28,155 nucleotides of DNA from a virus. Shown in pieces: positions 6,447-10,781 of this stretch. The notes under the pieces are model-generated. The model saw only the letters and a list, made by a program, of their open reading frames with translations. It did not search any database and had not been told where the DNA came from. Location of the stretch: IMG/VR virus record IMGVR_UViG_3300031758_000438, positions 1 to 28,155 of that record. One strand, 5' to 3'. How positions within the stretch are numbered: the first letter of the stretch is position 1; each line of letters starts with the position of its first letter. Both the position numbers and the translations under genes were made by a program.

Positions 6447-6695
6447 TCAATCAGCTGCCTCATAGGTGGCCGCAAAGATGTCAGGCTTGCATGGGTAGTG
6501 CTCACCCTTCACGCCCGTGATAATCCAGTCGCCGGGGGTGACGATATGGCCACCCTCCAATGTTTGAATCCAGCCATGGTGCTCGTAAACAAACTCCGGG
6601 CACCTATCCAGTGGCCCATCCAAAACTTCCGGGTGGTCGCCCATCTTGAACCATTGCGTGGCCTCAATGACAACAGGCTTCTTTCTGAATTTCAT
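6447..6695 (-). CDS. Conserved small phage protein (MKFRKKPVVIEA family)
   Basis: An 82-residue protein beginning MKFRKKPVVIEATQW and containing GHIVTPGDWIITGVKGE followed by YPCKPDIFAATYE. This opening and the PGDWIITGVKGE-x-Y-x-C-KPDIF signature are typical of a widespread family of small phage proteins of unknown function. The frame is open further upstream, but the ATG at 6695 is chosen because the family starts there and AAAGG lies at suitable distance. It sits in the early/replication gene run. The biochemical role is not known to me. Confidence 0.8.
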   Translation of the reverse strand: MKFRKKPVVIEATQWFKMGDHPEVLDGPLDRCPEFVYEHHGWIQTLEGGHIVTPGDWIITGVKGEHYPCKPDIFAATYEAAD

Positions 6696-7035: not shown

Positions 7036-8006
7036 GTGGCATCCCGCTTCATCTGCATCAATCCATCAACCAGGTGTTGAGGCTTGGGTGTCAGTCCCTC
7101 GGCTTTGTAGACCGCCAGCAGCGTTGTCAGACCTTCATCGATCTCAGCTTCGGTCATACCGTACTCAATCAATTTCACAATTGCTTCGTTGTTTAGAACA
7201 CATCTTAGATCTTCTCTTTTATTTAAATCTAAGTTTAATTCTTTCTTAGGTTTATCTTTACTAAGTACTTCTCTATAGTTAATTTCTGAGTTAAGCACAA
7301 CCTCCAGGTTGTTATCATCCACAACCTCCAGGTTGTTAATGGAGAGCTCATTTTTGTCATTGTTTACAGAGTTATTCACAGTCTTTTCCACAGGTTTAGT
7401 TGTTCCTATGGTGCGCTTTGACTTGGCTTTTTGGATGTCTTCCTTCATCTTTTTGACCGTCCTGGTCTGTCCTGATGTGGGCATGGTTTTCTCCTGGTTG
7501 AGTGGTTTCTTAAGTGCCTTGCTGATGAGCCTGGCGATCCTGGCCTGGCCTTCTTTGTCGATCTCTTGTGCTTGCCTCCTTTGCTCTTCAATGATGGCCG
7601 GTGGCCGTGTGTCCTCCTTGTTGCTTGTCATGGTGATTGCATCCTCCGCTGTGATATCTGGGTCGAACACTACGCGCAGAGTGTCTGAGCGCTGTCCTCT
7701 GAATCCTCTTCGCACTATCTGCAAGTAGCCGTTGTCCTTGAGCTGCTTGTACTGCTTGGCCACTGCTTGCTGGGTGATGCCCAGGTCTTGAGCGATCCTG
7801 CCTTGGCTGACCCATGTGACGCCTGCACGGTTGCAGTACGCGCACAGCGCTGCCAATGCCTGGAGTGCACCGTGACTGAGCTTCTTGTCAAACACAGCTC
7901 TGAACGGGATCACGCAGACCTTTCGCTGGTCTGGTAGTGGTTCCTGCTCTTTGATCCTGGGCTTCTTTGGCAGCTCAAACTTGATGGGTTCAACCATTGC
8001 GTTCAT
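7032..8006 (-). CDS. Winged-helix replication initiator (lambda O-like role)
   Basis: A 324-residue DNA-binding protein. Residues about 33-115 form a winged helix-turn-helix (LSHGALQALAALCAYC, then VSQGRIAQDLGITQQAVAKQ, then KQLKDNGYLQIVRRG). A long, Lys/Asn-rich linker follows (about 120-270), including the duplicated NNLEVV segment, then a small C-terminal domain (NNEAIVKLIEYGMTEAEIDEGL...). This architecture suits phage initiators that bind iterons inside their own gene and recruit a helicase loader. The linker DNA is strikingly AT-rich and carries repeats and DnaA-box-like sites. ATG at 8006 overlaps the upstream gene by 17 bases; ATG at 7997 is an alternative start. A transcription regulator is the other possibility. 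Confidence 0.65.
   Translation of the reverse strand: MNAMVEPIKFELPKKPRIKEQEPLPDQRKVCVIPFRAVFDKKLSHGALQALAALCAYCNRAGVTWVSQGRIAQDLGITQQAVAKQYKQLKDNGYLQIVRRGFRGQRSDTLRVVFDPDITAEDAITMTSNKEDTRPPAIIEEQRRQAQEIDKEGQARIARLISKALKKPLNQEKTMPTSGQTRTVKKMKEDIQKAKSKRTIGTTKPVEKTVNNSVNNDKNELSINNLEVVDDNNLEVVLNSEINYREVLSKDKPKKELNLDLNKREDLRCVLNNEAIVKLIEYGMTEAEIDEGLTTLLAVYKAEGLTPKPQHLVDGLMQMKRDAT
7196..7392. other. Putative replication origin inside the initiator gene
   Basis: Within the linker-coding part of the initiator gene lie, in order on the plus strand: an AT-rich tract (about 7196-7296) with four alternating CTTAG/CTAAG pentamers at 7204, 7229, 7245 and 7261; two exact 19-bp direct repeats; TTATTCACA (7372-7380), a perfect fit to the TTATNCACA DnaA box; and TTTTCCACA (7384-7392), one mismatch. 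This combination of unwinding element, iterons and DnaA boxes, embedded in an initiator gene, parallels lambda ori inside O. The element list is seen directly; origin function is inferred. Confidence 0.6.
7296..7338. repeat. Two iteron-like palindromic direct repeats
   Basis: CACAACCTCCAGGTTGTTA occurs exactly at 7296-7314 and 7320-7338, a 24-bp period (eight codons). Each copy contains an ACAACCT-CC-AGGTTGT inverted repeat with only the two central bases unpaired, typical of a dimer-binding site. The encoded peptide repeats NNLEVV. Confidence 0.85.
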
Positions 8007-8223
8007 TCTGGCGAACCCAGTGCATGTACGTCCTCACCAGCTGCTCTGAGCCAGCCCCGTAGGTCTTCTCGACTGCAGCCAAGTGCCGGTCGACGTTGGC
8101 CTTGTCTCTGGTCAGCTCCCAGGTCGTCAGCAGCTCTCTGGCCACTGCCATGAGCAAGATCGTCCTGTCGGGCTCCAGCGGGCCTTTGTGGCGGTAGTAG
8201 TGGGGTTTCCATGGCCGCTTCAC
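7990..8223 (-). CDS. Hypothetical 77-residue helical protein
   Basis: The GTG start at 8223-8221 overlaps the TGA of the zinc-ribbon gene (GTGA). The product begins MKRPWKPHYYRHKGPLEPDRTILL and continues with a helical region LMAVARELLTTWELTRD and VEKTYGAGSEQLVRTYMHWVRQNERNG. The same frame is open upstream to 8598, but those codons are the shadow of two other coupled genes, so the short form is preferred. Its family is not recognised. It is coupled upstream of the initiator gene, suggesting a replication-region accessory protein. Confidence 0.65.
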   Translation of the reverse strand: MKRPWKPHYYRHKGPLEPDRTILLMAVARELLTTWELTRDKANVDRHLAAVEKTYGAGSEQLVRTYMHWVRQNERNG

Positions 8224-9927: not shown

Positions 9928-10128
9928 ATGACAAACAAACCAACCATCTCACGCCTTCACGCTGGCCTCTACTACGTTTCAGGCTGGATCGCTGGCAACC
10001 TCGTTCAATACAGCGTTCTCAAGGCTAGCGAAGGCTGGGTACTGACTAAGACCTACGGCCACGGCCCTGAGTTCTACGCTGCGTTTAACACCAAGCGTGC
10101 TGCCATCAATGCACTGGTGGGAGCTTGA
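9928..10128 (+). CDS. Hypothetical 66-residue protein, first gene of recombination operon
   Basis: A 66-residue ORF, MTNKPTISRLHAGLYYVSGW..., with AAAGGAG 6 bases before the ATG and a mapped promoter-like site just upstream. It looks like a small beta-rich fold (HAGLYYVSG, LVQYSVLKASEGWVLTKTY) ending in a helix (NTKRAAINALVG). Small proteins with this 'I-x-R-x-x-x-G-x-Y...W-x-L-T' layout are common in phage early regions and have no assigned role. Its stop is followed directly by the recombinase gene. Confidence 0.75.
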   Translation: MTNKPTISRLHAGLYYVSGWIAGNLVQYSVLKASEGWVLTKTYGHGPEFYAAFNTKRAAINALVGA

Positions 10129-10130
10129 TC

Positions 10131-10781
10131 ATGACTAAGTTCGTCGCATACTTCCGAGTCTCTACAGATCGCCAGGGCCAGTCAGGTCTTGGCTTGGATG
10201 CACAGCGCCAGGCTGTTGCGCAGCACGTCGGTGACCAGGAGCTGGTTGCTGAGTTCACAGAGGTCGAGTCTGGCCGCAAGACAGATCGTGTGCAGCTGGC
10301 TCAAGCTATGAGCCTTGCCAAGCGTACAAAGTCTGTCCTGGTGATCGCCAAACTTGATCGCCTGGCACGTAATGTTCACTTTATTTCCGGCCTGCTTGAG
10401 TCAGGTGTTCCATTCGTTTGCGCTGACATGCCAGAAGCTGACCGCACCTTCTTGCAAATGTCTGCTGTGTTTGCTGAGTGGGAAGCACGCAAGATCAGCG
10501 AGCGCACCAAGGCTGCCCTGGCACAAGCCAAGGCCCGTGGCACACGCTTGGGCTGCCCTACCCCTACAGTTGGCAGCGCAGCTGGTGTGGCCAGCATCAA
10601 GACCAAAGCAGACGCATACGCTGCACGCATGTTGCCCATGGTGCGCGACATCCAGGCACGCATGGCCACTGCCACACTTCGAGACATTGCTGCCGAGCTC
10701 ACAGCTCGCGGCATTGAGACCGCCAGGGGCGGCACAGTCTGGCACGCAAGCCAGGTTTCCAACTTGCTCGCAAGAGCTTAA
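10131..10781 (+). CDS. Small serine recombinase (resolvase/invertase family)
   Basis: A 216-residue site-specific recombinase. The N-terminal catalytic domain has the nucleophile Ser11 in YFRVSTDRQ, the GLGLDAQR motif, and VIAKLDRLARN (DRLAR about 76-80), all classic resolvase/invertase features. The C-terminal part (about 160-216) is a helix-turn-helix DNA-binding region, TLRDIAAELTARGIETARGG followed by VSNLLARA. The size is that of resolvases/invertases, not of large integrases. ATG at 10131 has GGGAG 7 bases before it. It may catalyse integration, DNA inversion or multimer resolution; no paired crossover sites were found by eye, so its substrate is open. Confidence 0.92.
   Translation: MTKFVAYFRVSTDRQGQSGLGLDAQRQAVAQHVGDQELVAEFTEVESGRKTDRVQLAQAMSLAKRTKSVLVIAKLDRLARNVHFISGLLESGVPFVCADMPEADRTFLQMSAVFAEWEARKISERTKAALAQAKARGTRLGCPTPTVGSAAGVASIKTKADAYAARMLPMVRDIQARMATATLRDIAAELTARGIETARGGTVWHASQVSNLLARA

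Follow-up and report, generated by a model that had tools for sequence, protein, structure and literature searches.

In phage lambda (the O gene with ori-lambda), and likewise in P22 (gene 18) and phi80 (gene 15), the initiator binds palindromic iterons that lie inside its own gene and adjoin an AT-rich unwinding region (PMC5043065). P is present in lambda and phi80, and gp12 in P22; in lambda, DnaA binds two sites downstream of the pO promoter (PMC3985674). An origin inside the rep gene is also known from RepA_N plasmids such as pSK41, to which the phage-like initiator of pPR9 (pfam13730) may be added; the rep product has a winged-helix N-domain, a dispensable linker and a separate C-terminal host-contact domain; in staphylococcal plasmids, DnaA boxes were not detected (PMC5703833). 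In the iteron plasmids pSC101, P1 and R6K, an AT-rich opening region functions together with iterons and DnaA boxes; the iterons are mostly direct repeats that bind monomers (PMC5043065), and the initiators are of the Rep_3 type. We found no precedent in the open-access literature for a phage origin that lies within a gene and contains DnaA boxes.

Here, we analysed a 28,155-bp stretch of viral DNA (the window). Judged from its sequence, this phage very probably starts to copy its DNA inside its own initiator gene, as lambda does. We propose with good confidence that positions ~7187–7392 constitute a replication origin within that gene, which would act together with host DnaA by the steps set out below. 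On the best reading, the system would resemble ori-lambda with plasmid-style DnaA boxes. For a podovirus group that is mainly known from metagenomes, this is the first prediction of an origin and its initiator that we found.

The initiator and its relatives

The putative initiator gene (P0001; 7032–8006, minus strand) encodes 324 amino acids. Its product matched Pfam HTH_36 (E 1.3e-5) and the PHROG annotation of an O-like replication initiation protein (E 1e-7). In the AlphaFold2 model, a winged-helix domain is formed by residues ~31–117 (7656–7916, minus strand) and contains the recognition helix QQAVAKQYKQLKD (residues 79–91; 7734–7772, minus strand). That is, profile matches and model agree on an O-like initiator with a DNA-binding winged helix, as found in lambda-type modules. 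Residues 201–260 were modelled as disordered, and it is mostly this stretch that encodes the origin-like elements. It is followed by a C-terminal helical domain (residues ~267–323; 7038–7208, minus strand; pLDDT ~75–85), which is a candidate for the contact to the replisome. Structural comparison of the model with the N-domain of plasmid RepA (4pql) gave a Z score of 9.0 over 84 residues, a value equalled by unrelated winged helices, and a resemblance to 4pt7 was also seen. The Pfam hits of the window's initiator up to E 1 did not include RepA_N, which sets it apart from the initiators of RepA_N plasmids, nor was a Pfam match to Rep_3-type initiators obtained.

Scans of viral contigs yielded 80 loci. 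Our sample comprised the window's gene and 72 others, with 66 distinct sequences that fall into 33 linker clusters. A scan of genome contigs and a tblastn search of plasmids returned no prophage or plasmid relatives. In six relatives (G001, G003, G005, G006, G008 and G012), whose records are classed as linear, the contig ends overlap by 48–604 bp at 92–100% identity; these genomes are therefore probably complete or bear terminal repeats.

Among deposited phages, MEP301 (MW452941), a podovirus of Methylophilales (marine OM43), alone matched the window's initiator, and only in the N-domain (~40% identity); two distant members of the initiator family likewise had their best match in MEP301. RusA, SSB and terminase genes are similarly ordered in MEP301, which also has resolvase and YqaJ genes; we named the SSB-like gene of the window's module by position, since in MEP301 it neighbours the small terminase gene. 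The MEP301 paper reports no polymerase, and neither an origin nor an initiator (PMC8024684). In MEP301, the sole cultured relative, the initiator (gp55, L082:113–718) is shortened to 201 amino acids and annotated as hypothetical. Neither in-gene iterons nor DnaA boxes were seen in the MEP301 initiator gene. We therefore rejected MEP301 as a bearer of this in-gene origin, and it may have its origin at another place.

Palindromic iterons and the recognition helix

The exact 19-mer CACAACCTCCAGGTTGTTA occurs twice in the window's initiator gene, as iteron 1 (7320–7338, palindrome 7321–7336) and iteron 2 (7296–7314, palindrome 7297–7312), each containing ACAACCT-cc-AGGTTGT (7+2+7). This confirmed the two 19-bp repeats with 7+7 inverted repeats that had been noticed in the first-pass annotation. 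Such features are rare in synonymous codon shuffles of the gene, where a repeat of at least 19 bp arose in 6 of 2,000 and at least two 7+7 palindromes in 24 of 600 shuffles. A distal half-site, CGTTGT (7187–7192, plus strand; one mismatch), lies beyond the AT-rich tract and has a class-matched counterpart in most clusters. The same layout recurs in the 73 genes of the 33 clusters: in most cases DnaA boxes come first, followed by palindromic iterons and the AT-rich tract, and usually by the distal half-site at the end. Compared to lambda, P22 and phi80, this phage family has two to four palindromes of 16–18 bp with another sequence.

Both copies in the window stand in one reading frame and encode NNLEVV, as would be expected if selection acted on a repeated linker motif of the protein and the repeats had no role as DNA. 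We consider this explanation almost certainly wrong. In relatives, the half-site is preserved in a different frame, or it has changed jointly with the recognition helix so that a very different peptide results, and the linker is modelled as disordered. Half-sites stand in various reading frames and occur on either strand, so that it is the DNA and not the peptide that is kept. A comparison of homologues, which had been suggested as a check, thus turned out in favour of repeats maintained at the DNA level.

We then compared the type of the recognition helix with that of the iterons. The two classifications were diagonal in 33 of 33 clusters (18 QQA, 5 RQA-N, 2 RQN-N, 4 RQA-K and 4 QPA), which share kinship and do not represent 33 independent events. 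Half-sites read ACAACC in the QQA class, GCAACC in RQA-K and GATAAC in QPA, the count of the latter overlapping the DnaA boxes of the QPA genes. RQA-N and RQN-N are associated with GGACAC and its GGAAAC variants, with RQN-N being the weaker class, in which some GCAACC is present. On a tree of the remaining protein, built without the recognition part of the winged helix and without the linker, the helix classes require seven changes; RQA-N needs two changes even when only well-supported branches are counted.

Two pairs of genes illustrate how helix and iterons differ jointly, most clearly L036 and L040. These two genes diverge in both the winged-helix segment and the iteron block but are otherwise almost identical, and the AT-rich tract and the flank with the DnaA boxes are retained. 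The window and L004 display the same kind of mosaic, with 60 identical columns within the AT-rich tract. As in lambda-type modules, the iterons are thus matched to the DNA-binding domain of the initiator, here by co-variation. These natural joint differences suggest, at the sequence level, a recognition code in which residue 79 reads ACAACC when it is Gln and GCAACC when it is Arg. Such a code is open to tests with single-residue and single-base exchanges.

The AT-rich tract

A putative AT-rich unwinding element spans 7194–7293 and adjoins the iterons, as does the AT-rich region of lambda-type origins. According to nearest-neighbour energies, it has the lowest duplex stability of the entire window for 60-bp as well as 100-bp stretches, the least stable 60 bp being 7218–7277. 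The tract ranked first for instability also in all six near-complete relative genomes tested. Among 13 close relatives, the synonymous difference was 0.025 in nt 589–813 versus 0.168 in nt 1–588, which is a roughly sevenfold lower rate in the origin-coding part than in the upstream part of the gene, and it dropped to 0.000 in codons 231–265; recent recombination could partly account for these low values.

Four alternating CTTAG/CTAAG motifs had been listed among the origin-like features. They are present in the window (7204–7208, 7229–7233, 7245–7249 and 7261–7265), but of the 33 clusters none except the window, L003, L004 and L024 has at least three copies. The motifs are specific to one clade, and we dropped them as a general origin element.

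Position and conservation of the tract also bear on another explanation, in which the palindromes form an intragenic operator through which the initiator blocks its own transcription, with the true origin located elsewhere. The palindromic half-sites do resemble operators, and co-variation with the winged helix would suit any DNA-binding role. However, the iterons sit ~670 nt into the gene, where they neighbour the DnaA boxes and the least stable DNA of the genome, and synonymous sites are frozen in the AT-rich tract as well, a constraint that an operator would not call for. Paired half-sites were moreover confined to the site in the initiator gene in six near-complete relative genomes. We therefore regard an operator as very unlikely and an origin as the preferred reading of the palindromes.

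DnaA boxes

Two matches to TTWTNCACA, TTTTCCACA (7384–7392, plus strand) and TTATTCACA (7372–7380, plus strand; TTATCCACA in L002 and L003), lie in the part of the gene that encodes the linker, where the first-pass annotation had placed DnaA boxes. They are the only two in the 28,155-bp window, and at least two such matches arose in just 8 of 2,000 synonymous codon shuffles of the initiator gene. A weak DnaA-like box, TCATCCACA (7315–7323, plus strand), is found between the iterons; we claim no function for it.

The window's own boxes differ from the perfect TTATCCACA. Across the family, 14.8 kb of linker and C-terminal sequence contain 26 copies of TTATCCACA, versus 3 copies in 241.8 kb of flanking sequence (~140-fold enrichment), and all of the 26 share one strand. 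Synonymous shuffles predicted 2.3 copies, so that the observed number is 11 times above expectation. A linker box within one mismatch of TTATCCACA is present in 30 of the 33 clusters, and the QPA lineage has two to four perfect boxes. The boxes hold a single codon frame (xxT GTG GAT AAx), which means that their recurrence partly reflects an inherited position. Yet codons at VD[NK] are strongly biased to T-GTG-GAT beyond local usage, given that in the same genes GAT makes up 21% of Asp codons and T 13% of third positions. That is, DnaA boxes under DNA-level selection stand beside the iterons, as in DnaA-assisted iteron origins, and on these sequence grounds host DnaA likely takes part in origin function.

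In three clusters (L010, L037 and L047, all RQA-K) no box was detected even when one mismatch was allowed. Either DnaA is hence dispensable for some members, or it acts at another place in them. Together with the single codon frame and the box-free initiator genes of lambda, P22 and phi80, this is what a lambda-type in-gene origin working without DnaA would look like; the boxes would then be remnants or reflect a VDN motif of the protein, and the C-terminal domain or the small upstream protein (see below) would recruit the helicase directly. Such an origin appears rather unlikely to us, as it conflicts with the codon bias at VD[NK], with the excess of perfect boxes over the shuffles and with the several perfect boxes of the QPA lineage. 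We therefore retain DnaA in the proposed origin. As a side observation, genes of the RQA-K class (GCAACC) are mostly boxless (L010, L037, L041 and L044–L048), but one of them, L071, has a perfect box, and this is a natural contrast for DnaA dependence.

The boxes had initially been taken as an addition to the lambda arrangement. For the initiator gene this holds, since lambda O, P22 gp18 and phi80 gp15 contain no DnaA box within one mismatch; outside that gene, however, lambda has the two DnaA sites downstream of pO mentioned above (PMC3985674).

Helicase recruitment and proposed mechanism

In 12 relatives, we detected no DnaB_C, IstB/DnaC-like, Phage_lambda_P or PolA family, while control searches were positive. 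That is, in contrast to lambda, phi80 and P22 with their P or gp12, neither a P-like loader nor a DnaB gene was recognized, and the relatives possibly carry a diverged helicase loader. Since three lambda-type features are present but a loader or helicase is not recognizable, we classify the system as a variant and not as a plain member of the lambda type.

A small ORF of 77 amino acids (7990–8223, minus strand) lies directly upstream and overlaps the start of the initiator gene by 17 nt. It was found in 69 of the 80 loci, in most of them with an overlap of 17–20 nt. Its product is helical, with three helices; searches of Pfam, PHROG and PDB gave no significant match, and the fold search was negative at E 0.001. 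These empty family and fold searches led us to reject it as a known loader; it may be a partner of the initiator or a helicase adaptor.

We propose the following sequence of events. The initiator would bind, probably as dimers, to both palindromic iterons by means of its winged helix; it may also bind the distal half-site past the AT-rich tract. This step is suggested by the co-variation. Binding, together with host DnaA on its boxes, would then open the adjoining AT-rich tract, in keeping with the position and the stability rank of the latter. Finally, host DnaB would be recruited via DnaA and/or the C-terminal domain of the initiator, perhaps assisted by the small upstream protein; this is the weakest step. 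Because there is no recognizable phage loader, we hypothesize that DnaA acts as the helicase recruiter. If DnaA indeed loads the helicase, the phage would borrow the chromosomal initiator instead of encoding a loader. Taken jointly, we give slightly less than even weight to the following picture: a phage lineage has a lambda-type in-gene origin, uses host DnaA as helicase recruiter and lacks its own loader, and winged helix and iterons pass from phage to phage as a matched specificity cassette around a fixed frame of DnaA boxes and unwinding element.

An origin inside an O-like gene, with iterons, unwinding element and DnaA boxes, had been suggested from the window alone; conservation, co-variation of helix and iterons, and enrichment of boxes now argue for it. 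The turn of the GC skew expected near 7.2–7.4 kb was absent, with no clear turn at the site in the window and six relatives. These genomes show a weak and irregular skew, and we therefore consider this result uninformative and not refuting.

Neighbouring genes

The replication module comprises RusA, RecE, RecT, the SSB-like gene and a serine resolvase. A serine resolvase-type recombinase is encoded at 10125–10781 (plus strand) of the window and is carried in 13 of 14 relative contigs. Searches of deposited phages returned no close DNA relatives of the window, and the sole match was a small gene at ~6447–6580 (minus strand). This gene shares 74–85% DNA identity with Gordonia, Arthrobacter, Shewanella, Cobetia and Salmonella phages, and its presence in phages of such different hosts suggests wide transfer.
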